Source: an uncultured bacterium (lineage in GTDB: Bacteria > Actinomycetota > Actinomycetes > S36-B12 > CAIYMF01). From it: a DNA stretch of 64,000 bases. A program made the position numbers and the translations under genes. Below are positions 52,021 through 64,000 of the stretch, one piece after another. Every line of letters begins with the position of its first letter. The first letter of the stretch is position 1. The stretch is taken from positions 1 to 64,000 of the forward strand of contig CAIKEU010000079.1 in assembly GCA_903826575.1 (NCBI GenBank), in the 5' to 3' direction. The notes below the pieces were generated by a model. It saw only the letters and a program-made list of their open reading frames with translations. It searched no databases and was not told where the DNA came from.

Positions 52021-52818
52021 TTAATCATCTTCAGAACGCACTTCGACGATCCTGCCACGAACCCGCGGCTGCCCATCAGCACTAGGTTTACCAAACGTCC
52101 GCACCGTTATCCTCGTCCGATCGGCTCGAAAGAGATCATGGGAATACTCGAATGGACGTCCGTCAGCGTCGGCGGTTGTACGAGTGACGGAGATAAGCGC
52201 TGACCCGGCAGGAACGTCCAGCACGAGAGCCTCGCTGTCTCCAGCGGAAAGAACTTCCAGTTGCTCGACGGCCTCATACGGACCAACTCCGTACTCCTGC
52301 TCCATGAGTTCATAGAGAGAACCACCTAGGGGCCGCTCGAGCAGACCAGGGAATCTCTCCGCCGGAAGTTGGACATGCTCCAGGGAAATGGGCAGTCCGT
52401 CGGCAAGCCGAATTCGAACGAGATCGAAAACCAGTTCGTCATCACGTAGAGCCAATGCGTGTGCCGCGTCTGCCTCTGGATGAACGACAGCGGCACTAAT
52501 GACTCGTGTTCCGGCCACGTATCCTTGTCCACGAAGCAGGGCTGGCACACCCACGATCCGGGACAGATCCCGATCAATCTTTTCGCGTGCCACGAAGGTG
52601 CCACCACCACGTCCGGGGACGCGTCGAACCGTGCCATCCAACTCAAGGGCTGCTAGCGCCTGCCGCACCGTTGTTCGACTGACACCGAGTTGAAGTGCCA
52701 AATCGCGCTCGGCTCCCAGCCGCTGGCCGGGCCGCAACGCACCTGAGCGGATCATGGAGACCAGATTGCGGCGCGCCTCATCGGCTGTCGGGCCCAGTGT
52801 GGCTTCCTGCGCGGTCAT
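52021..52818 (-). CDS. GntR-family regulator, HutC/UTRA subgroup, of the BMC locus
   Basis: A 265-residue regulator. The N-terminal winged helix (residues ~12-75) contains RPGQRLGAERDLALQLGVSRTTVRQALAALELDG and the wing VRRVPGRGGGTFVA. The C-terminal UTRA ligand domain contains LARIRLADGLPISLEH-like strands and ALISVTRTTADADGRPFEYSHDLFRADR. It is the last gene of the leftward BMC operon. RMM-type loci of mycobacteria also carry a GntR gene beside the dehydrogenase. GGTC/GACC elements at 59992-60269 are candidate operators. ATG 52818 is chosen over 52824 because AAGG lies six bases upstream. Confidence 0.92.
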   Translation of the reverse strand: MTAQEATLGPTADEARRNLVSMIRSGALRPGQRLGAERDLALQLGVSRTTVRQALAALELDGTVRRVPGRGGGTFVAREKIDRDLSRIVGVPALLRGQGYVAGTRVISAAVVHPEADAAHALALRDDELVFDLVRIRLADGLPISLEHVQLPAERFPGLLERPLGGSLYELMEQEYGVGPYEAVEQLEVLSAGDSEALVLDVPAGSALISVTRTTADADGRPFEYSHDLFRADRTRITVRTFGKPSADGQPRVRGRIVEVRSEDD

Positions 52819-52875
52819 CGACATCCTTATCCGGTGCGCCCATGCCGGACGTACGCAGAGACTAGCCTGTGTTGA

Positions 52876-53661
52876 CTACTCGGTGACTTCAAGCGCCGCG
52901 AGTGACTCGGGAAGAATTTGTCCGCCATCAATAATCAGCGCCTGCCCCGTAACGTAGGCGGCCTCGTCGGTGGCAAAGAACAGCGCGGCATTACCGATGT
53001 CGTCCACCTCGCCGAGGCGACGCAGCGGAATTGATGACTCCATCGAGGCGCGATACTCCGGACCCATCTCCGCCAATCCTTCAGTGGCGATATTGCCTGG
53101 CAGCACTGCGTTTACCGTGATACCGCGGTGCGCAAACTCAATAGCAGCCGTGCGCATGAAGCCGAGCTGTGCGGCTTTACTTGCACCGTAATGCGCCCAT
53201 CCGGGAAATCCAGTTACCGGGCCGGTGATTGACGAGGTCAGAATGATTCGGCCGTGGCTGGAATCAGTAAGCGCAGGCAGGCAGGACTGAACGGACAGGA
53301 ACGTACCTTTCACGTTCGTGTCGAAAACTAGGTCCATGTCCGCCTCGGACATGGTGGAGAAGGGAGCACCTGGGAAGATTCCAGCGTTGGCACACAGAAT
53401 ATCGATTCCGCCATTGCGCTCGATCGCTGTCGCAGCCATTTCTTCATTGTGAGACTTCTGGGAGATATCTCCGAGCAGGTACGTCACGGTGCCGTCACCA
53501 AGTGCTGTTAGCTCCGCAGCTGCTGCCACGGCTGACGCTTCGTCACGACCGGTGATGAGAACGTTGGCACCCGCTTTGGCGAAGACACGGGCAATTCCCT
53601 TGCCAATCCCCTTCGTTCCCCCGGTAACGATAACCGAGCGACCAGCGATAGAGGTAAACAT
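52876..53661 (-). CDS. Short-chain dehydrogenase, likely 1-amino-2-propanol dehydrogenase
   Basis: A 261-residue classical SDR. The cofactor motif TGGTKGIGKGIA is near residue 15, NAG near 92, and the catalytic Ser-Tyr-Lys at about 144, 158 and 162 (the last two in YGASK). IDGG closes the fold. Gene order relative to the regulator, kinase and shell genes matches the RMM locus of Mycobacterium smegmatis, whose SDR oxidises (S)-1-amino-2-propanol to aminoacetone. The specific substrate is inferred from that synteny. The ATG at 53661 has AGGAG five bases upstream. Confidence 0.85.
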   Translation of the reverse strand: MFTSIAGRSVIVTGGTKGIGKGIARVFAKAGANVLITGRDEASAVAAAAELTALGDGTVTYLLGDISQKSHNEEMAATAIERNGGIDILCANAGIFPGAPFSTMSEADMDLVFDTNVKGTFLSVQSCLPALTDSSHGRIILTSSITGPVTGFPGWAHYGASKAAQLGFMRTAAIEFAHRGITVNAVLPGNIATEGLAEMGPEYRASMESSIPLRRLGEVDDIGNAALFFATDEAAYVTGQALIIDGGQILPESLAALEVTE

Positions 53662-53723
53662 ATTCACTCCTGCACTATGACGAATTGACGTGAGGTGGAC
53701 TGTTCTTGGATCCGATCTAACTA

Positions 53724-54701
53724 CTAACTGAAGTTACTTAGGTACGTCTCGGCGAGATCGCATGACGTAAACGTGAACTGTTCACCCAGAGCCTGCGCCT
53801 CGGGAACAGCTGCGTGGTCGCCAACCCACGCCACCAGTAACAGACGACGTAACATCACGAATGTGGGCAGCTCAGCGATTTCTTCCGCAGACAGGGCGCC
53901 CTCCGTCAGGTAGCCACTGATCCACGAATCGATCAACTCCGGCACCACAGGGTAGTGCTCGATGAACGAGAGCGAAGAGCCGAGATCGTAGAGATACCAA
54001 CTGAATCCGCAATCGTCGAAATCGATGACGTTCACATCGGGGCCTTCGACGAGCAAGTTTGCCAACCGCATGTCCGCGTGCACAAGACCGAATCGGTCCG
54101 GACCTTTTCCGAACGCGTGAAGACGCGCTTTCAAAGTATCCGAGCAGCGTCCCAAAATGAGCCGTTCTGCTGGGCCTACTCCCATACCGTCCTGCCATGG
54201 CCCCCAATGGCCACGCTCACCAAGGGACGTGTCGTAATCCCAGGTGAATCGGGTGAAGTTGGCTGGCTGCTGCCACGTCTTTGCGTGGCGGTGCAGCCGC
54301 GCGGTGATTGCCCCGATTTGGGCGAAGTCGGCAACGAGTCGCTCTTCGGGAGGCTCAACACCGGTCAACCATTCGAAGGCCACGACGAAACGCTCTTCGC
54401 CGTCCGGGTGGGCTACAGCGATAACGCTGCGTCCGTCAGGAGTGGCGCGGATGGGCGCTGTTTGAACAATCTCATCGGTCCGTAACGCCTCGATCCACAT
54501 CAGCTCGCTCTCGATCGCTTCGCGCGTGTGGTAGTTCGTTCGGTGCACACGGATTACGAAGCGAGTGTCACCGTCGTCGAGGCGGTACGTCGCATTTTCT
54601 GAGACGTTGAGCAGGGTCAGTTGCGCGTCGGGACGTCCATGTTCCGCGGCAGCTGCACGCGCAAAGACTTCAAGCCGTACGGTATCGAGCGCCTCGCTCA
54701 C
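53724..54701 (-). CDS. APH-family phosphotransferase, putative amino-alcohol kinase
   Basis: A 325-residue kinase of the aminoglycoside/choline-kinase fold. Brenner's motif is LVHADMRLANLLVEG (Asp210 as base, Asn215 for metal), and the metal-binding Asp is in NVIDFDDCG (about 227). The N-lobe LLNVSENATYRLDD, then RFVIRVHR, resembles homoserine-kinase-like APHs. In RMM loci this enzyme is proposed to phosphorylate the hydroxyl of 1-amino-2-propanol so that the PLP enzyme can eliminate phosphate. AAGGGAG precedes the GTG at 54701. Resistance to aminoglycosides is not suggested. Confidence 0.85.
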   Translation of the reverse strand: MSEALDTVRLEVFARAAAAEHGRPDAQLTLLNVSENATYRLDDGDTRFVIRVHRTNYHTREAIESELMWIEALRTDEIVQTAPIRATPDGRSVIAVAHPDGEERFVVAFEWLTGVEPPEERLVADFAQIGAITARLHRHAKTWQQPANFTRFTWDYDTSLGERGHWGPWQDGMGVGPAERLILGRCSDTLKARLHAFGKGPDRFGLVHADMRLANLLVEGPDVNVIDFDDCGFSWYLYDLGSSLSFIEHYPVVPELIDSWISGYLTEGALSAEEIAELPTFVMLRRLLLVAWVGDHAAVPEAQALGEQFTFTSCDLAETYLSNFS

Positions 54702-54773: not shown

Positions 54774-55424
54774 TTACTGCCCGCGACCTTCGATTGACTC
54801 AAGGACTCGAGTAATTGCCTCTTGTGCCTTGAGAACACCAGCGGTAGTGCCACCGATATACACCCGACCGGCGGCGCCGATCATCTGAACATCGACGAGA
54901 ACATTTTCGGGGGCAACCTTTTCAGCCTCGTTCGCTGCAACGGCGGCGAAGAGGGCAGGTGTCATTTCGTACACGAGCAAGCTCTGCCCCGGTAGAAGCA
55001 TTGACGCTTGACGGTTCCGATTGATGATCACCGCATGCTGATCAGTAACGTTTTCGATCACGTCGTGGTACAGAACTCGCGGAGCGAGCTGATCAGTCGG
55101 AACTGCGTTCAAACCATCGAGAATCGCCTGACCAGCCGCCATCACGTCATCAAGTGACGACGAGTGGATTTCCAGCACGCCGAACTGGCGCTCGACGAAC
55201 AGGATACCTGGCTCAATGTCAGGCACGCTCGTAAGTGCGAGGTGCGTTACGCGCTCAATTGCGAGCCCGGGTGCAACCTCGACGATGAGTGCATGTTGAC
55301 CGGCGAACGGCGGGTACCCACGAGCACGCGTAGGCGTGCCCATGTACGCGGCGAACTGCTGCTGGAGGTCTTCCACCAGCAGGTAGACGCGTAACTCAGG
55401 TCCCGCGAACGGGACTGAGGTCAC
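54774..55424 (-). CDS. BMC-T shell protein (tandem BMC domains), first trimer
   Basis: A 216-residue tandem-domain shell protein. Domain 1 covers ~30-120 (HALIVEVAPGLAIERVTHLAL, then GILFVERQFGVLEIH) and domain 2 ~125-212 (HAVIINRNRQASMLLPGQSLLVYEMTPALFA, then VDVQMIGAAGRVYIGGTTAGV). Such proteins form pseudohexameric trimers with a central pore. It shares the ERQFGxLEIH and IGAxGRVYxxG blocks with the second BMC-T at 56506. Both differ from Pdu-type BMC-T and match the RMM type. The GTG start overlaps the BMC-H stop. Confidence 0.9.
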   Translation of the reverse strand: MTSVPFAGPELRVYLLVEDLQQQFAAYMGTPTRARGYPPFAGQHALIVEVAPGLAIERVTHLALTSVPDIEPGILFVERQFGVLEIHSSSLDDVMAAGQAILDGLNAVPTDQLAPRVLYHDVIENVTDQHAVIINRNRQASMLLPGQSLLVYEMTPALFAAVAANEAEKVAPENVLVDVQMIGAAGRVYIGGTTAGVLKAQEAITRVLESIEGRGQ

Positions 55425-55711
55425 GCGGACGCCTCACCCGAAACGTTGAAGTGCTTCGAGAGCTCGTTGTGCGGACGTGGGATCACGTGAACGGAAACCA
55501 GTTCGCCGATCGACGATGCAGTCTCTGCGCCAGCTTCAGTGGCAGCCTTGACCGCGCCGACATCGCCAACGATCGTGATGGCAACAAGACCGTCACCAAC
55601 CTGGTCGCGACCAACGATGACAACGTTGGCAGCCTTGACCATGGCATCGGCGGCAGCGAGTGCGGCTACATATCCCTTGGTCTCAATGAGACCAATTGCG
55701 TTGTTCGACAT
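55421..55711 (-). CDS. BMC-H hexameric shell protein
   Basis: A 96-residue single BMC domain: AIGLIETKGYVAALAAADAMVKAANVVIVGRDQVGDGLVAITIVGDVGAVKAA (interrupted by no gaps) and the C-terminal VSVHVIPRPHNELSKHF. This is the canonical PduA/EutM-like hexamer that tiles shell facets. The pore loop, normally Lys-Ile-Gly-Ser-Gly, appears here as GRDQVGDGLV. AAGGAG lies before the ATG at 55711. It is the only BMC-H gene in the window, so it probably supplies most of the shell. Confidence 0.95.
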   Translation of the reverse strand: MSNNAIGLIETKGYVAALAAADAMVKAANVVIVGRDQVGDGLVAITIVGDVGAVKAATEAGAETASSIGELVSVHVIPRPHNELSKHFNVSGEASA

Positions 55712-55790: not shown

Positions 55791-56069
55791 CTACTTCTTA
55801 CGGGTCTTAACTGTGTCCGTTGCAGACGGGACGGGATCGATCGAGCCGATGATGAGGGCATCGATCGGCGGTGCTACGGGCCCCGGAAACCAGGACGCCG
55901 CGACAGAACCGGTGGCGACGAGAACAGTCTCGCCAACACCAGAGCCGAGGACATCGAAAGCGATGAGCTTCGCTCCACCATCGATCTCGACCTCAAGGAA
56001 TGCACCTGCAGGAATCTGCTCCAGTCGACGGCTGGCCCAGACATTGCCGATTACCTTCGCGCGCAGCAT
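55791..56069 (-). CDS. BMC-P pentameric vertex protein (EutN/CcmL family)
   Basis: A 92-residue EutN/CcmL protein: MLRAKVIGNVWASRRLEQIPAGAFLEVEID, then AFDVLGSGVGETVLVATGSVAASWF and APPIDALIIGSID. The GxGxxVLVxxGS turn is the family mark. Pentamers cap the shell vertices. The ATG at 56069 shares its A with the TGA of the upstream gene and has AAGGAG five bases away. One vertex gene with one hexamer and two trimers makes a minimal complete shell. Confidence 0.95.
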   Translation of the reverse strand: MLRAKVIGNVWASRRLEQIPAGAFLEVEIDGGAKLIAFDVLGSGVGETVLVATGSVAASWFPGPVAPPIDALIIGSIDPVPSATDTVKTRKK

Positions 56070-56509
56070 CACGTCTCCTTTGTGATTTTCACGCCAGCCG
56101 CCCGTGCGCGATCGCGCGCGAGCGGAGTCATGACAGCCCGCTTACCGAGTACGAGAATCGCACCCGAATCAGCGGCCTCGCGGACATGCTTTTCCGTTAC
56201 GGCACCCTTTTCCACACGAACAATCGCATCAGATACGACGCTCGTCGAGGCCGGGGCCACATGTGACACAGTCGAAACTGCTAAACGGAAACTTCGGGTT
56301 CCGGCGACAATCGCATCTCGCTCAGCCTGAGTGGCTGTGGCGACTCGTCGCGCGAACGCATTCAGTTCAGCGTCCGAGTTGATGTTGACTACCTCGGTGG
56401 GAGAACCGGCTGGGTCAAGCGCCATTGTTTGCGGGACAACATCAGCGAGTACTTGCCGCACCATTTGGCGCAGCAAGTCTCGCTCGTTATCACCTAGGCC
56501 CACGGTCAC
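56069..56509 (-). CDS. Uncharacterised BMC-operon protein with EutQ-N-like C-terminus
   Basis: A 146-residue protein with no recognised enzyme signature. Residues ~5-26 (ERDLLRQMVRQVLADVV) form an amphipathic helix like those that target proteins into shells. Residues ~45-98 are a small helical/beta region. Residues ~100-143 (VTEKHVREAADSGAILVLGKRA, then MTPLARDRARAAGVKI) resemble the short motif at the N-terminus of EutQ and in other BMC-associated proteins. It corresponds by position to the unstudied MSMEG_0274 of the RMM locus. It overlaps both neighbours by three or four bases, so it is tightly coupled to shell genes. Confidence 0.8.
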   Translation of the reverse strand: MTVGLGDNERDLLRQMVRQVLADVVPQTMALDPAGSPTEVVNINSDAELNAFARRVATATQAERDAIVAGTRSFRLAVSTVSHVAPASTSVVSDAIVRVEKGAVTEKHVREAADSGAILVLGKRAVMTPLARDRARAAGVKITKET

Positions 56510-57108
56510 TGCACACCTCGTAGCGAGGCCTCGGCAGCTTCAGCGGCCTGCCGCACATTACTTTCAGTTCCAGAGAGGTAAACCCTCCCGGTGGCACCGA
56601 TCATGCGGTAGTCAACAACCTTGATATCGGCCGCCTTCTCCGCTTCGTTGGTCGCAAGAATCGCGTACGACGCAGGGGCCATCTCAAGGACGAATAGCGA
56701 CTCACCTGGCAGGGCCATCGAGCCAACCTTGTTGCGGTTGATGAGAAAGGCATGTTGACGATCAAGCATCGTGACGATTCGCGAGGCCAGAATTTGCGGG
56801 CGAACTGCCGACGACGTATCCGTTCCCAGCGCATCGAGTACGGCCTCGCCAGCCGCTTTCACCTGCCCGGTCGGACCATGAATCTCGAGGTAACCGAACT
56901 GGCGCTCAACGACCAAAATGCCAGCCTGGACTTCCGCATACTTGAGGGCGACGTCAGTCAGCGGCTCGATATCCAACCCCGGCGCTACCTCAATGATCTG
57001 TGCTGCCACATCTGCCCGCGGCAGCGCGCCCTTGATCCACGTGCCGAGGTAACACATCGTCTGCGGCTGCAGGCGATCAAGGAAGATGAACGAACGAAGT
57101 TCTGCCAC
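56506..57108 (-). CDS. BMC-T shell protein (tandem BMC domains), second trimer
   Basis: A 200-residue tandem BMC protein. Domain 1 is at ~30-110 (IIEVAPGLDIEPLTDVALKYAEVQAGILVVERQFGYLEIHG, with no gap) and domain 2 at ~115-195 (HAFLINRNKVGSMALPGESLFVLEMAPASYA, then VVDYRMIGATGRVYLSGTESNV). It is a clear paralogue of the 54774-55424 protein but has a shorter N-terminus and diverged middle loops, so the two trimers probably form different pores. The start is GTG, six bases after the aldehyde dehydrogenase stop. Confidence 0.9.
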   Translation of the reverse strand: MAELRSFIFLDRLQPQTMCYLGTWIKGALPRADVAAQIIEVAPGLDIEPLTDVALKYAEVQAGILVVERQFGYLEIHGPTGQVKAAGEAVLDALGTDTSSAVRPQILASRIVTMLDRQHAFLINRNKVGSMALPGESLFVLEMAPASYAILATNEAEKAADIKVVDYRMIGATGRVYLSGTESNVRQAAEAAEASLRGVQ

Positions 57109-57113
57109 GTAGG

Positions 57114-58679
57114 TCAGCCCCTGACAATCGCATTGAGCTCTTCAATGATCAGACGACGAATTTCATCGCGTAATTCATCTGGGGCGTCGTTGGACATTGC
57201 AACGGTAGATGGAACAAGTGGAGCTGCAGTCAAATCGTTCGAGGCCCGCGGATATGCAGGCACAGCAGCGGTCGGGGTGTGCCACGGGGTCAACCCAGCA
57301 AAGTCCGCCATCGGCACTAAGGCATCGGTGTTGTACGCAATGCGCGTCCAGTTGATCAGATGCTTCGGTTCGAGGTTCTCCCCCACCGACGAGCGGCCAA
57401 GGAAGCCAGTGCCGATGGTCATGGTCGGTGCAAGATTCGTTTCGATACCCGATGCGCCGAGGCTGTTGCCCACGTTTACTGAGACGCGCAGAACTCGCAC
57501 GGCAGCTGAGAAAGCCATGATTGTCTGAGGATTCGACGAGTGGATAGCAGCCGAATGTCCCTGACCAGTAATGCGAAGGACCGCCTGAGCCGCATCGATT
57601 CCACGACTAACGTTAGGCACACGCACGAGGCCAAGCACTGGGCACAACTTCTCGTGAGCCAACGGCTCTTCGGGAACGACGAGGTCGAAGGGTGCCACCA
57701 GAATCTTTGTGCGTGCATTCACCCGAACGTTGGCCGCGGCCGCAATCGCAGTGGCATCCTTGCCCACCCACTTCGGATCAAAATGACCCTCGGGGAAAAC
57801 AAGATCGCGAACGCGATCACGCTCGTCATCGGAAAGAAGGTGTGCACCTGCACGAGTCATCGCGTTGAGCAGTGCCGCAGCAGCGGACTCTTCAACGATC
57901 AGAACACTCTCGTTCGTGCAAAGGATGGAGTTATCGAACGACTTGCTTTCGACGATTCGTTGTGCGGTCGCGTTGAGATCTGCAGTCGCATCAACCAGTA
58001 CCGGCACATTTCCTGGGCCAACCCCAATAGCCGGATTACCACTGCGGTAGGCAGCGCGAACCATCGGAGTTCCGCCAGTGGCCAAGATCACGTCCGTTCG
58101 AGGATCGGTCATCAGAGCGTTAATGAGTGGAATAGACGGCTCTTCAACGACCTGAATACATCCGTCGGGAGCACCGGCGGCAACAGCCGCGGCCGCCATC
58201 GTGCGCGCTGCTTCGGCGCACACGGCTTTGGCGTAGGGGTGCGGGCTGATGACGATTGCATTTCGCGTTAGCAGCGCCAACATAATCTTGAACATGACCG
58301 TCGCAACCGGATTTGTCGACGGTGTCAGCGCGAGCACGACGCCGGCAGGTCGCGGAACTTCAACCATTTTGTCGGAGCTGTCGATCACGACATCGATGTA
58401 GTCGCTCGCGCGGTACTTCGCCGCGATGCCTGTTGAACAGGCAAGATTTTTGAGCAACTTGTGCTCGGCAACTCCATAGCCCGTCTCACGCACTGCCCAC
58501 TCGGCAAATTCCTTTGAGCGCGCGGCACCGGCCTGCGCAGTGGCGTCGACGATGCGCTGCACGGTCGCAGCGTCGTAGGTGGCGAACGCACGCGCAGCCC
58601 ATTCGGCGCGCTCGATCATTGCTCGGCCGCGCGGGACGCCGGCGGGGTCAAGTGGCATTTCAAACATTGTGTCAACCAT
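57114..58679 (-). CDS. BMC CoA-acylating aldehyde dehydrogenase with C-terminal encapsulation peptide
   Basis: A 521-residue PduP/EutE-like dehydrogenase. VEVPRPAGVVLALTPSTNPVATVMFK and GGTPMVRAAY are cofactor contacts. The nucleophile Cys254 is in FDNSILCTNES. Residues ~499-521 (APDELRDEIRRLIIEELNAI) form an amphipathic helix after a loose linker, which is a C-terminal encapsulation peptide as in RMM-type enzymes; PduP carries it at the N-terminus instead. It would turn propionaldehyde, CoA and NAD into propionyl-CoA in the lumen. Its ATG overlaps the aminotransferase stop (TAATG). Confidence 0.92.
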   Translation of the reverse strand: MVDTMFEMPLDPAGVPRGRAMIERAEWAARAFATYDAATVQRIVDATAQAGAARSKEFAEWAVRETGYGVAEHKLLKNLACSTGIAAKYRASDYIDVVIDSSDKMVEVPRPAGVVLALTPSTNPVATVMFKIMLALLTRNAIVISPHPYAKAVCAEAARTMAAAAVAAGAPDGCIQVVEEPSIPLINALMTDPRTDVILATGGTPMVRAAYRSGNPAIGVGPGNVPVLVDATADLNATAQRIVESKSFDNSILCTNESVLIVEESAAAALLNAMTRAGAHLLSDDERDRVRDLVFPEGHFDPKWVGKDATAIAAAANVRVNARTKILVAPFDLVVPEEPLAHEKLCPVLGLVRVPNVSRGIDAAQAVLRITGQGHSAAIHSSNPQTIMAFSAAVRVLRVSVNVGNSLGASGIETNLAPTMTIGTGFLGRSSVGENLEPKHLINWTRIAYNTDALVPMADFAGLTPWHTPTAAVPAYPRASNDLTAAPLVPSTVAMSNDAPDELRDEIRRLIIEELNAIVRG

Positions 58680-59977
58680 TAGCGGAACTTCCGTTCTGAC
58701 ATCACATCGGCCCGGGCCTTGGCAATGCCAACCTCGGTTCGATCGAGCAGTTCCTCGGCAAGTTCCGGCTTCACAAGAATGCCTGGCTTGTATTGCAGTA
58801 CCCGGGGATCCAGGGTCGAGAAGATCGCCCAGACACCATTTTCGTAAAGGCGCTTCATTACGAACTTCGCACCCTGCGGGTCCGCAAACTCCAGACCCAT
58901 AACGACGCCGTTTTGCCTGATGCCTATGAACCAGTCGGGATACGTAGCCTGAATCTCTCGCAGGCCTCTACCGATGAAGTCAGAGATGTAGTGCACCATC
59001 GAACGAGTCTCCGGGCGATTGCAGATCTCCAAAGCCTTCAGCGCAGCAATACAGCCGAGCTCGGCCCCGCCGAAGGTGGAGATGTGTCCGAAGCCGTCCT
59101 CAGTGAGCCATCCAGCACATCGCTCACTGACCAGCACGGCAGCAATCGGGTACATGCCGCCGGAAATTCCCTTGCCCGTCACCAAGATGTCTGGCTCGAT
59201 GCCGTGCTTGGTGATTCCCCAGAGTTCGCCGGTACGCATCAGGCCGGTCTGAACTTCGTCAGCAATGTATAGAGCGTCGTACTTTTCGCACAACTGCTTC
59301 ACGGCTTCGAGATAGCCGGGGTTGGGCAGCGGGAAGCCGTACGTCGCGGGGATTGTCTCCATGATGACGGCAGCAATATCGCGGCCCTTAAGGACCTCTT
59401 CCATCGCTTCGAGATCATTGAAGGGGACGTGCGGGAAGTCTTCTTCATTGTCCGATAGGAACAGTTTGGAGAACCGATCGTCACCGGTACCAACAGCTAG
59501 ACCGGTATGACCGTGATACGCCTTGATAATCGACAGGATTTTGCGCTTCTGCGTCGCGTGGCGAGCAGTCTTGATCGCGATATCGATCGCCTCGCCACCA
59601 CCAGATCCGTAAATCACCTTGGTCAGGTTTTTCGGTGCGCTGGCTATCAGCGACTCAGCCAGTGCGGTACGAGCCAGCGACGGGAAGTGGTGGTTGCCCA
59701 TGTCGAAGTGCTGCATGGCGACCGTGATTGCCTGAACCATCTCGCGGTTGCGGTGACCGAGGTTGTACGTGCCCCCGTTGAGATGTGCGTCGATCAGGCG
59801 CTTGCCCGAGACGTCGTAGATGAAGTACTCCTCGCGGCGGTCAATAACCAGCGGGATTCCGGACTCTGACCAGAAACTGGTCTTGCCCGGATTCCAGTAC
59901 TCCTTGCTCTTCTCAAGCACCTCATCCTTTGAGGCGAAAGAGAAGAAGCCGTAGTCCAGCGCAGTGGCATCGGACAT
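58679..59977 (-). CDS. Class III PLP enzyme of the BMC, putative amino-alcohol-phosphate phospho-lyase
   Basis: A 432-residue fold-type I PLP enzyme. YGSGGGEAIDIAIKTAR binds the phosphate, Asp240 in YIADEVQTG pairs with the pyridine nitrogen, and Lys269 in LVTGKGISGGMYP forms the Schiff base. It is annotated as aminotransferase in the family. In RMM loci it is proposed to act as a phospho-lyase, releasing ammonia and phosphate from 1-amino-2-propanol phosphate to give propionaldehyde. Ethanolamine-phosphate phospho-lyase is a class III relative with that chemistry. The ATG at 59977 with a GGGAGG site heads the operon. Confidence 0.88.
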   Translation of the reverse strand: MSDATALDYGFFSFASKDEVLEKSKEYWNPGKTSFWSESGIPLVIDRREEYFIYDVSGKRLIDAHLNGGTYNLGHRNREMVQAITVAMQHFDMGNHHFPSLARTALAESLIASAPKNLTKVIYGSGGGEAIDIAIKTARHATQKRKILSIIKAYHGHTGLAVGTGDDRFSKLFLSDNEEDFPHVPFNDLEAMEEVLKGRDIAAVIMETIPATYGFPLPNPGYLEAVKQLCEKYDALYIADEVQTGLMRTGELWGITKHGIEPDILVTGKGISGGMYPIAAVLVSERCAGWLTEDGFGHISTFGGAELGCIAALKALEICNRPETRSMVHYISDFIGRGLREIQATYPDWFIGIRQNGVVMGLEFADPQGAKFVMKRLYENGVWAIFSTLDPRVLQYKPGILVKPELAEELLDRTEVGIAKARADVMSERKFR

Positions 59978-59991
59978 GGGACCTCCCGCTC

Positions 59992-60003
59992 GGTCAGTAG
60001 ACC
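59992..60003. promoter_or_regulatory. Candidate GntR operator O1
   Basis: GGTC-AGTA-GACC lies between the predicted -10 box and the first start codon of the BMC operon. HutC-type regulators such as DasR bind GGTC-TA-GACC-like sites, so this is a candidate target of the GntR gene at 52021-52818. Confidence 0.45.
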
Positions 60004-60005
60004 AA

Positions 60006-60033
60006 ATCATACCGATTATTCATACCAATACAA
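60006..60033 (-). promoter_or_regulatory. Predicted leftward promoter of the BMC operon
   Basis: Read leftwards, TTGTAT (60033-60028) and TATGAT (60011-60006) are 16 bp apart, a reasonable sigma-70 promoter ending 28 bp before the ATG at 59977. The flanking inverted repeats would let a bound repressor block it. Confidence 0.5.
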
Positions 60034-60056
60034 GACCAATTCTTGATCAATTGGTC
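60034..60056. promoter_or_regulatory. Candidate GntR operator O2
   Basis: Perfect 8-bp inverted repeat GACCAATT / AATTGGTC with a 7-bp spacer, abutting the predicted -35 box of the BMC operon on its upstream side. It is made of the same GACC/GGTC half-site as O1. Confidence 0.5.
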
Positions 60057-60308
60057 GCAAGGAAAACCGCACTGCGTCGTCATTCGGCGTGTCCATGACG
60101 TTTCGTCCGTGTAAAACTTGCCAGTTCGTGAGCGTGACGGACGCTAAAGTGCCACGTCACCACGGAATTGGTTCGGGAAAGTGCTTGATTCGGTCCACTA
60201 ACTAACGACATACTCCCCTCCAACATGTGATCGGGGTCACCAGAAACCGAATCACTCGTTTGGTCCACTGTTAAGCGCGCATCCGCGAGCGAAAGGAACA
60301 TCACTCGA

Positions 60309-61895
60309 ATGAGTACTGCCCTACCCGGCGATCACCAACTGACCGCCAACGAGCACAACAAACTGAAGGCCGGCACCGTTGGGCTCTTCGGCGTGCTGTT
60401 CATGGCACTCGCTAACGCAGCGCCGATCACAGCCATGACAGGTAACGTGCCGATCGCTATCGCGTTCGGCAACGGCATCTACGCTCCCGCCGGATTTGTC
60501 CTGGCCACGATCGTTCTGACGCTGTTCACGATCGGATTCATCTCGATGGCCCGCTACATCACCACGACCGGTGCTTTCTACGGCTTCATCAGCCATGGCC
60601 TCGGCCAGATCTGGGGTATGGCGACTGGCTTCATGGCCACGATGTGTTACATCGTGTTTGAGGGGTCACTCATCGGAATCTTCGCCTACTTCGCAAGCCA
60701 AGCGATTAACACCTGGACAGGTGCGACCATTAACTGGCTGCTCATTGCCCTCATCGGCATCATCCTGGTCGGCGTCCTTGGATACTTCGACATCTCGATT
60801 GCCGCCAAACTCTTGGGCTTCTTCCTGATCTGTGAGGTTGTACTGCTTGCCGCTCTCGCCTTCTCGGTGCTCTTCAAGGGTGGCGGCCCCGACGGCCTCA
60901 TGTCCGACATCGTCAATCCACTGAACGCATTCAAGAGCATGCCAGAAGGTGGCGGCACCAATCCGGCCGTCATGGTTGGCGACCCAGCAGCACCCATCGC
61001 AGCTGGTGCCGCAGCCCTGGGTGTGTTCTTCGCATTCTGGTCTTGGATCGGTTTCGAGACGACCGCGGTCTACGGCGAAGAGTCGCGCAACCCGCGCAAG
61101 ATCGTTCCTCAGGCAACGTTGTTCGCGGTTATAGCACTCGGTGTCTTCTACTCATTCGTTTCATGGATGGTTATCGCCGGTAACGGTGCCAACCAGGCGA
61201 TCACGAAGTCGTACACGAACGCCATCACCATGTTCACCGATCTCGCGGTTGCGAACCTCGGCGGTGAATGGGTCCGAACCGTCTACTTGGTTCTCATCGT
61301 TTCGGGTTCCTTCGCTTGCGCGTTGGCCTTCCACAACGCAGCCTCGCGTTACCTCTACGCGATCGGCCGTGAGGTGCCCGCTCTGCGCAGCAACCTTGGC
61401 GCGACGCACGCAACGCACGGCTCACCGCACATCGCATCGATCGTTCAGACGATCATTACCGTCCTGCTCACGGTCGGTTTCTACTTCCTAACGCCAAACG
61501 GTAGCGATGTTCTTCAAGGCGGCTACATCTTCGAATACGGCCTGCTGGCCCTACTCGGAACTCTGGCCATCCTGCTGGTCATGGCAATTTGTTCGATCGC
61601 CGTCATCTGGTACTTCTGGGTCAAGAAGGTACACACGGGTAACGTCTTCTCGACGCTGATCGCACCAGCACTTGGCTTCCTCGGCATGATGTACGTCGTT
61701 TACCTGCTCCTGAGCAACATCACCTTCGCCGGTGGTGGCGCCGCGGGTTCAGCATTCTTCGTCGCTATCCCGTGGATTACCCTGGCCACATTCGTTGCCG
61801 GTCTGCTATTCGCCCTCTGGATCAAGAAGAGCCAGCCAGACGTGTACGCAGAAATCGGACGCACTGTGCTTGAAGAAGCTCACGAGCGCGTCTAA
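60309..61895 (+). CDS. APC-superfamily amino acid/amine permease
   Basis: A 528-residue permease with about twelve to fourteen membrane helices. The unwound first helix shows LMALANAAPITAMTGNVPIAIAFGNG, and FWSWIGFETTAVYGEESRNPRKIVPQA is the conserved helix 6/loop of the APC family. It is divergent from the BMC operon, matching the permease of RMM loci, and probably imports 1-amino-2-propanol or a related amine. The ATG at 60309 follows AAAGGAA. A strong hairpin ends its transcript at 61922-61964. Confidence 0.9.
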   Translation: MSTALPGDHQLTANEHNKLKAGTVGLFGVLFMALANAAPITAMTGNVPIAIAFGNGIYAPAGFVLATIVLTLFTIGFISMARYITTTGAFYGFISHGLGQIWGMATGFMATMCYIVFEGSLIGIFAYFASQAINTWTGATINWLLIALIGIILVGVLGYFDISIAAKLLGFFLICEVVLLAALAFSVLFKGGGPDGLMSDIVNPLNAFKSMPEGGGTNPAVMVGDPAAPIAAGAAALGVFFAFWSWIGFETTAVYGEESRNPRKIVPQATLFAVIALGVFYSFVSWMVIAGNGANQAITKSYTNAITMFTDLAVANLGGEWVRTVYLVLIVSGSFACALAFHNAASRYLYAIGREVPALRSNLGATHATHGSPHIASIVQTIITVLLTVGFYFLTPNGSDVLQGGYIFEYGLLALLGTLAILLVMAICSIAVIWYFWVKKVHTGNVFSTLIAPALGFLGMMYVVYLLLSNITFAGGGAAGSAFFVAIPWITLATFVAGLLFALWIKKSQPDVYAEIGRTVLEEAHERV

Positions 61896-61921: not shown

Positions 61922-61964
61922 CTGCGGGGTGCGTTGCGTGGTTTCCACGTAACGCACCCCGCAG
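61922..61964 (+). terminator. Hairpin terminator after the permease
   Basis: A 20-bp stem with a single G-U pair (arms 61922-61941 and 61945-61964) closes a TTT loop, 26 bases after the permease stop. TAATTT follows. It should largely separate the permease mRNA from the diol dehydratase gene 54 bases further on, implying a separate promoter or controlled read-through for the latter. Confidence 0.75.
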
Positions 61965-62018: not shown

Positions 62019-64000
62019 ATGAATGACACCGATCGCATCGGCCGGTTTCGCTTCATGGACGCTCAACGAGTCAACCTAGACGGGTTCGCGGTCGAAGATG
62101 AATCGCTTGGACTCATCGCCTTTAGTGCTGAGGCCGACCCCGAACCAACGCTTGTCCTTGACGCGCATGGCAACGTGGTCGAAATGGACGGCCGGGAGGC
62201 GGCGAACTTCGATCTCATCGACGAATTCATCGCCCGACACGGTCTTGACCTCAGCGTCGCCTCGGAGGTTATGGCACTCGACGACGTTGAGTTCGCGCGT
62301 CGAATCGTCGACATAAACGTTCCTCGGGCCGAGATCATTCGGCTTGCTGCGGGGGCAACCCCGGCGAAACTTGCGCGTGTCCTTTCCCGGCTCCGCGCAG
62401 CCGAGCTCGTCATCGCAATGACGAAGATGCGCGCACGCAAGACCCCGAGCAACCAGGCACATGTCACAAACAGATCAGACGATCCGCTGCTGCTTGCTGC
62501 CGATGCCGCGACAGCAGCAGCCTTCGGATTCCGCGAAATCGAAACCACCGTTCCCGTGCTCGGTGATGCGCCGAGTAACGCGGTGGCTGTGTCGATTGGT
62601 GCTGCGGTGGGCGCCGTTGGCGTGCTCGTACAGTGCTCAGTTGAGGAGGCACTCGAACTCGAACTCGGGATGGCGGGGCTCGTCTCCTACGCAGAGACCG
62701 TCTCGATCTACGGAACTGAGCAGATTTTTATTGATGGCGACGACACCCCATGGTCCAAGGCGCTGTTGACCTCTGCTTATGCAAGCCGCGGAATGAAGAT
62801 GCGCGTTACATCCGGTGGCGGCTCTGAGGCACTCATGGGGGCTGCGGAAAATCGGTCCATTTTCTACCTCGAGGCTCGCTGTGTGTCGCTCGCCAGAGCC
62901 CTTGGGACACAAGGTGTTCAGAACGGTGGGATTGACGCCGCGTCCGTCTCGGGATCCGTGCCCGGCGGTGCGCGCAGCATGATGGCTGAAAACCTCATGG
63001 TGATGATGCGTAATCTCGAGGCGTGCACGGGAAACGATGCGCTCATGAGCGAGTCGGATGTAAGGCGCACCTCACGCACCCATCCGATCTTTATCGCCGG
63101 AACTGATTTCGTCTGCTCAGGTTTCGGATCGATTCAGCGCTACGACAATATGTTTGGCCCTAGTCAATGGAACTCTGAAGACATCGACGATTTCCTCATC
63201 ATGCAGCGTGACTGGACCGTCGATGGCGGCCTGCGTAGTGCTTCCGAGCCCGAGGTTGCCCGTTTACGACGTCGCGCGGCTCATGCCGTCCGGGACGTCT
63301 ACCGCTTCCTCGGCCTAGCCGACTTTGATGATTCCTGGGTCGAGCAGGCTATAGACGCCGCCGGTTCAAAGGACATCCCAGCAGCCGATCTCATGACCCC
63401 CCTTGATGCATCGCGAATCATTCGCCAGTCTCGCGTCACGATGGTGGACGTCGTCGCAGCACTTGATGCATGCGGGTACGAAATCGAAGCAGAGCGCCTA
63501 CTCGCGATGCTGCACGCACGCGTTGACGGTGATTACCTCCACACTGCTGCCATCTTCGACGAGCAGATGAACGTGATGTCTCTGGTTACAGATGCCAACG
63601 ATTATGCGGGGCCCGGCACGGGTTACGAGATCACCGGAACGCGGCTCACCGAACTCAATGGCGTACGTCAACAGCGATCGGTCAGCGACCTGCGCGATGA
63701 ACAGGCCGCTGCTGCCGGAAATCACTTCACTGTCGTCGGCGCCGCCGCAGCGGGATCGGACCCGACAGAAGTCACCATCGGAGTGTCCGCAGCCACGGGA
63801 CGGGCGATCTGGACAACGCTTTCTGGTCTTTCCGTCGTAGACGTACTTGACGAGTTGTTAGCCGGACTCGAGGAGGAGGGCTGCCGCGGGCGGATTATCC
63901 GAATCAACGACACCGTCGACCTCGGAATGATCGGGCTGACGGCTGCACGGTTGTCGGGATCCGGTATCGGGATTGGGTTGCAGGCAAAGGGCACTGCGTT
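62019..64000 (+). CDS. B12-dependent diol/glycerol dehydratase, fused large and medium subunits, cut by the window end
   Basis: The frame is open from ATG 62019 (AAGGAG eleven bases upstream) to the last base: 660 residues without a stop. Residues 1-~550 align with PduC, with a constant +5 offset and no gaps through the active site. Gln146, His148, Glu175, Glu226, Gln301, Asp340 and Ser367 match catalytic or metal-binding Gln141, His143, Glu170, Glu221, Gln296, Asp335 and Ser362. After a short linker, residues ~568-660 align with the PduD core (LLAGLEEEGCRGRIIRI, then LSGSGIGIGLQAKGT). Ser301 of PduC is Asp306 here, and Gln336 is Ala341. The small subunit and a reactivase would be expected beyond the edge. 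Confidence 0.93.
   Translation, partial: MNDTDRIGRFRFMDAQRVNLDGFAVEDESLGLIAFSAEADPEPTLVLDAHGNVVEMDGREAANFDLIDEFIARHGLDLSVASEVMALDDVEFARRIVDINVPRAEIIRLAAGATPAKLARVLSRLRAAELVIAMTKMRARKTPSNQAHVTNRSDDPLLLAADAATAAAFGFREIETTVPVLGDAPSNAVAVSIGAAVGAVGVLVQCSVEEALELELGMAGLVSYAETVSIYGTEQIFIDGDDTPWSKALLTSAYASRGMKMRVTSGGGSEALMGAAENRSIFYLEARCVSLARALGTQGVQNGGIDAASVSGSVPGGARSMMAENLMVMMRNLEACTGNDALMSESDVRRTSRTHPIFIAGTDFVCSGFGSIQRYDNMFGPSQWNSEDIDDFLIMQRDWTVDGGLRSASEPEVARLRRRAAHAVRDVYRFLGLADFDDSWVEQAIDAAGSKDIPAADLMTPLDASRIIRQSRVTMVDVVAALDACGYEIEAERLLAMLHARVDGDYLHTAAIFDEQMNVMSLVTDANDYAGPGTGYEITGTRLTELNGVRQQRSVSDLRDEQAAAAGNHFTVVGAAAAGSDPTEVTIGVSAATGRAIWTTLSGLSVVDVLDELLAGLEEEGCRGRIIRINDTVDLGMIGLTAARLSGSGIGIGLQAKGTA

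Follow-up and report, generated by a model that had tools for sequence, protein, structure and literature searches.

The dehydratase gene at the end of the window (the whole stretch of 64,000 nucleotides analysed here) encodes an aspartate, Asp306, where PduC of Klebsiella oxytoca has Ser301, and it belongs to a clade in which this aspartate is fixed. What we observed directly is the altered residues and how far they are fixed, the intact catalytic apparatus and the genes around the dehydratase. On the best reading of the sequence evidence, to which we assign a probability of roughly 0.48, the preferred substrate would be an amine-bearing diol, with the Asp306 carboxylate pairing with a cationic group near C3. 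The simplest such compound would be 3-amino-1,2-propanediol, for which we know of no common natural source; the amine could sit on C3 or, given the small residue at 341, at the next position, and Ala341 would enlarge the pocket in the window’s subclade. The usual B12 radical 1,2-hydroxyl shift would convert 3-amino-1,2-propanediol to 3-aminopropanal, which might be oxidised by the locus’s own aldehyde dehydrogenase or a different one. What we infer is that the substrate carries an amine, which compound it is and what becomes of the product. Somewhat more tentatively, the Asp301 clade, which spans actinobacteria, rhizobia and two proteobacterial bins, may constitute an undescribed class of B12-dependent amino-diol dehydratases. 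These would work together with a kinase, a PLP enzyme and an SDR as a module of amino-alcohol catabolism, joined to a microcompartment in RMM2.

The dehydratase and its substrate pocket

The open reading frame that begins at 62019 encodes the fused large and medium subunits of a coenzyme-B12-dependent diol/glycerol dehydratase (Table 1). At full length in the contig it has 747 amino acids, with residues 1-660 inside the window and the rest beyond its end, and Pfam matches to the whole gene place Dehydratase_LU (1e-224) and Dehydratase_MU (3e-25) in one chain. The small subunit is encoded by the next gene (64214-64621 of the contig), completing the set of large, medium and small domains, and is followed by a reactivase gene (64636-66306 of the contig; L107:2637-4307) with DDR and DDR_swiveling domains. 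The metal-ligand and catalytic residues Q141, H143, E170, E221, Q296, D335 and S362 (PduC numbering) are all present, and the canonical C3 pocket pair, Ser301/Gln336, is replaced by Asp306/Ala341. The protein is a member of the diol/glycerol dehydratase fold family with a different class of pocket, and its catalytic apparatus is complete, predicting an active-site-complete enzyme. An AlphaFold model built with 29 sequences (mean pLDDT 85) gives 1.6-1.7 A over 544 residues when superposed on 1DIO/3AUJ. A hairpin with a 20-bp stem and a 3-base loop (61922..61964, + strand) separates the permease and dehydratase genes; it is terminator-like with a poor T tail and may uncouple the two. An Rfam scan at the dehydratase returned no cobalamin riboswitch or other element at gathering score.

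Table 1. Features of the window and of its dehydratase gene
Feature	Position	Strand	Basis
GntR/UTRA regulator	52021..52824	-	
SDR	52876..53667	-	
APH-family kinase	53724..54701	-	Pfam APH; weak match to kinase-lyase fusions PRK06149/PRK06148
BMC-T double-domain shell protein, second copy	54774..55424	-	NCBIfam CcmP-like
BMC-H shell protein	55421..55711	-	
BMC-P (EutN/CcmL) shell protein	55791..56072	-	
RMM-locus protein, conserved, no Pfam match	56069..56509	-	Recurrence across loci
BMC-T double-domain shell protein	56506..57108	-	Pfam BMC, NCBIfam CcmP-like
Aldehyde dehydrogenase, CoA-acylating type	57114..58679	-	NCBIfam AdhE/EutE-type models
Class-III PLP enzyme, aminotransferase fold	58679..60010	-	Pfam Aminotran_3
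APC-family amine/amino-acid permease, same strand as dehydratase	60309..61895	+	Pfam AA_permease_2
B12-dependent dehydratase, fused large + medium subunit	62019..64000, on to contig position 64262	+	Pfam
Asp306 (PduC Ser301, substrate C3 position), codon GAC	62934..62936	+	Alignment
Ala341 (PduC Gln336), codon GCG	63039..63041	+	Alignment

An earlier note on this DNA had read Ser301 as Asp306 and Gln336 as Ala341, and both substitutions are borne out by the codons and by an alignment to 1DIO, 1IWP, 9VII and K. oxytoca PduC that is gap-free across both pocket stretches: Q301-N-G-G-I305-D306 in the window enzyme stands against Q296-N-G-S-V300-S301 in PduC, and N-D340-A341 against N-D335-Q336. 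The note’s claim of conserved catalytic and metal-binding residues likewise holds, with all 15 catalytic, metal-site and coenzyme-site positions examined retained (141, 143, 170, 172, 205, 208, 221, 222, 224, 226, 261, 296, 335, 362 and 374) and none of them varying in 107/107 Asp-type sequences. Val300 (Ile305) and Phe374 (Phe379), described there as kept or conservatively replaced, are Ile or Val and invariably Phe, respectively, throughout the same set.

That positions 301 and 336 govern substrate range, as the note maintained, agrees with published mutants, which show changed inactivation by glycerol and accept longer 1,2-diols and 1,2,4-butanetriol, and with the changed substrate range of S301A/Q336A (PMC9850924; PMC7674605). 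Its placement of residue 301 near the substrate C3 is matched by the 3AUJ glycerol complex, in which S301 hydrogen-bonds the glycerol 3-OH (PMC9850924). Since residue 301 contacts C3 in published structures, Asp306 should lie opposite the C3 substituent, the position at which the proposed amino-diol class has its acidic residue. This contact and the S301A/Q336A effect argue for an amino diol, whose ammonium group Asp306 may hold.

Counting against the amine, the 3-OH of glycerol could serve just as well as the hydrogen-bonding partner of a carboxylate. A neutral-diol enzyme, an explanation we think rather unlikely, would convert 1,2-propanediol or glycerol (Asp accepting the 3-OH hydrogen bond) to propionaldehyde or 3-hydroxypropanal and feed an aldehyde dehydrogenase and microcompartment also handling propionaldehyde from 1-amino-2-propanol, making RMM2 bifunctional. 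The catalytic residues are all those of a diol dehydratase and propionyl-CoA has been proposed as the RMM output (PMC8156839), but a carboxylate opposite the C3 methyl of 1,2-propanediol would be unfavourable. Growth on 1,2-propanediol by Paracoccus yeei TT13, which is listed with RMM2, might seem to favour the neutral diol; the genome paper, however, reports the pdu operon as missing and infers that the route runs via lactate (PMC5773746), and we rejected this growth as evidence.

The Asp301 clade

Close relatives and more distant ones were combined into an alignment of 127 sequences, of which 107 have Asp and 20 have Ser at position 301. Asp is fixed in 107/107 members of one clade, at identities down to about 50%, against Ser in 20/20 of the others, a pattern that, judged from these sequences, exceeds chance. 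The clade is old, and its actinobacterial members come from several lineages. In a tree of 54 sequences one S/D change suffices, and the branch separating the Ser side has 100/99 support. The single, strongly supported split and the presence of Asp throughout a clade with intact catalytic residues both point toward an amino diol; that the change from S to D occurred once counts against it, since neighbour counts then cease to be independent.

Position 336 varies in the Asp set (n = 107: Ala 71, Asn 27, Ser 5, Thr 4), so Asp301 is the character that matters; in the Ser set (n = 20) it is Gln in 19 and Ala in one. Closer relatives of the window enzyme (65-94% identity over the match, both positions readable) have Asp and Ala without exception. 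Genomes that appear to be Mycobacterium carry three paralog groups, namely Ser/Gln, Asp/Ser-or-Thr and Asp/Asn, and the RMM-linked copies are Asp/Asn, so Asp with Ala is not a general signature. One fused dehydratase (L119; G322:C1 about 783468-785117) combines Ser301 with Ala336; it forms a long branch next to the canonical clade and shows both features, fusion and Ala336, in the absence of Asp301.

Further residues specific to the clade are Gly299, Glu340, Gly365 and mostly Arg369 (PduC numbering), and N369R, H340E, S365G and Y178D change along with position 301. Such linked changes would suit an Asp306 that is held by another protein group (e.g., Arg at PduC 369) or touches the adenosyl ribose, leaving substrate range as it was. 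This strikes us as improbable, as the residue touches the substrate in 3AUJ and eight sequences keep Asp301 without Arg369; an obligate Asp301-Arg369 pair was rejected on the latter ground. In the open literature, a scope outside which most subscription journals lie, we found neither a description of the Asp branch nor a B12 amino-diol dehydratase.

Gene neighbourhoods within and beyond RMM2

With a diol dehydratase adjoining BMC genes, and with an aminotransferase-fold enzyme, aldehyde dehydrogenase, phosphotransferase, SDR, permease and GntR regulator, the window locus is RMM2 in the sense of Axen et al. 2014 (PMC4207490). RMM2 loci with a dehydratase have been known since that study, which considered the enzyme probably unused by the compartment and offered as an alternative the bifunctional compartment that a neutral-diol enzyme would imply (PMC4207490). 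The kinase is proposed to be an amino-alcohol kinase, and the class-III PLP enzyme, whose nearest solved chains are aminotransferases, a putative amino-alcohol-phosphate lyase. In most RMM loci the gene for the 146-residue RMM-locus protein is conserved between those for BMC-P and BMC-T. The divergent promoter region of the PLP-enzyme and permease genes (60011-60308) contains a repeated GGTCCACT and an ACCAATT...AATTGGT palindrome, which are possible GntR operators; inspection by eye upstream of the dehydratase revealed no similar motif.

Sharing a locus with 1-amino-2-propanol genes, and a fold with ethanolamine ammonia-lyase (Z 20), the dehydratase might instead be a B12 ammonia-lyase built on the diol-dehydratase frame, acting directly on a vicinal amino alcohol such as that one in parallel to the kinase/lyase route. 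We hold this to be very improbable: Asp306 lies at the C3 end, the amine of 1-amino-2-propanol would be at C1 near the metal, and the diol-binding metal ligands are all retained.

The usual neighbours in the Asp clade are a putative amino-alcohol kinase, a class-III PLP enzyme, an SDR and an amine-type permease. Among the 55 Asp/Ala loci whose flank on one side reaches 6 kb or more, 42 have both kinase and PLP enzyme; shell genes accompany these in 34 and are missing in 8, and contig ends cut many of the other loci. The two genes also occur together at 16 of 27 Asp/Asn loci (11 with shell genes, 5 without), whereas 0/10 Ser-type loci with comparable flanks have them (Fisher p about 6e-5, a value that is descriptive only because the S/D change occurred once and neighbour counts are not independent tests). 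This contrast supports an amino-diol substrate, as does the amine-type permease that is the only such neighbour of the mycobacterial Asp/Ser-Thr group and of L120. The amine-linked neighbourhood asserted in the earlier note stands in part: actinobacterial Asp-type dehydratases adjoin amino-alcohol genes, as do the rhizobial ones, there with other genes, but amine genes are absent near 11 of 27 Asp/Asn copies, these being mycobacterial. Those copies weigh against the amino diol together with L101, among whose ORFs no homologue of amino-alcohol genes was found.

Loci that lack shell genes (e.g., L081, L091-L093, L178, L184, L186, L187 and L190) retain the dehydratase with the kinase and PLP enzyme, mostly accompanied by the SDR and permease, and most of them also lack the RMM aldehyde dehydrogenase. 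Retention of the dehydratase with amino-alcohol genes argues for the amino diol and, where shell and aldehyde dehydrogenase are missing, against a neutral diol. The suggestion that Asp306/Ala341 might co-occur with RMM shell genes did not survive the family alignment; the pair is not specific to them, since mycobacterial RMM loci are Asp/Asn and Asp is also found without a shell, and it was rejected as a marker.

On two rhizobial plasmids (Shinella and Agrobacterium) the gene for an Asp-type fused dehydratase stands in a single run with those for a small subunit, an SDR, an APH kinase, a class-III PLP enzyme, a GntR-FCD regulator and an ABC importer. The kinase and PLP enzyme are of the PRK06148/06149 type, the latter being 25% identical to its RMM counterpart. 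As judged from the sequences, these runs are a second assembly of the same gene combination from distantly related genes, and their repeated pairing with SDR, kinase, PLP enzyme and GntR lends further support to the amino diol, on the evidence of two plasmids.

The canonical Ser/Gln paralog and eutB are about 4-6 kb apart in 7/13 mycobacterial genomes (e.g., G747:C1 4338369-4345855, plus six others), so a diol dehydratase can neighbour amine genes; perhaps the proximity reflects that both enzymes make aldehydes with B12. This arrangement favours the neutral diol, and it weakens the case from neighbouring genes, which we rejected as proving that the substrate is an amine. Gene context favours the amine and does not establish it, neighbourhood alone being weak evidence.

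Other genes recur near the dehydratase in relatives. Between permease and dehydratase, on the dehydratase strand, L033:8512-9971 and its equivalents in 34 related loci encode an acetamidase/formamidase-family protein (29 loci), an HbpS-like protein (29 loci) or both (24 loci); the window has neither. An amide hydrolase of this family is compatible with an amine-releasing step. Downstream of the dehydratase operon in small-genome freshwater actinobacteria, L043:8034-15632 and its equivalents form a nitrogen-compound island with an Amidohydro_3 enzyme, a fused urease gamma-beta gene, urease alpha-like genes, an AAT-type acyltransferase, a DAO oxidoreductase and an ABC transporter.

The annotation of every Asp-type gene is propanediol/glycerol dehydratase. 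One or two such genes are present in many mycobacteria, and no role has been assigned to the RMM2 dehydratase since 2014. If Asp marks amine substrates, a single residue would divide two substrate classes, a new catabolic route would be predicted and RMM2 would be a microcompartment fed by two substrates.

Comparison with known systems

The window enzyme resembles K. oxytoca PduCDE (1DIO, 1UC4, 3AUJ) in its fold, metal and catalytic residues, separate small subunit and reactivase. It differs from PduCDE in overall sequence (47% identity), in the replacement of Ser301 by Asp, Gln336 by Ala, Ser299 by Gly, Asn369 by Arg and His340 by Glu, and in its fused large and medium subunits; no separate reactivase small subunit was seen adjoining the gene. 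Glycerol dehydratase of Klebsiella pneumoniae (1IWP) shares the family and mechanism, with the same pocket differences as for diol dehydratase. Ethanolamine ammonia-lyase, EutBC (3ABO), likewise uses B12 radical chemistry in the same barrel (Z 20) and has an amine as its substrate, but identity is 12-13% over the alignment, and subunits and substrate-binding residues differ. The PRK06148/PRK06149 kinase and PLP phospholyase pairs strongly match the rhizobial pair beside the Asp-type dehydratase and are distantly related to the RMM kinase and PLP enzyme; the known fusions come without a dehydratase. Finally, the locus has the shell proteins, aldehyde dehydrogenase, aminotransferase-fold enzyme, kinase, SDR, permease, GntR regulator and dehydratase of RMM2 (PMC4207490). 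Unlike the 2014 reading, which placed the dehydratase probably outside the work of the compartment, the pocket change and the shell-less loci link it to the amino-alcohol genes and not to the shell.
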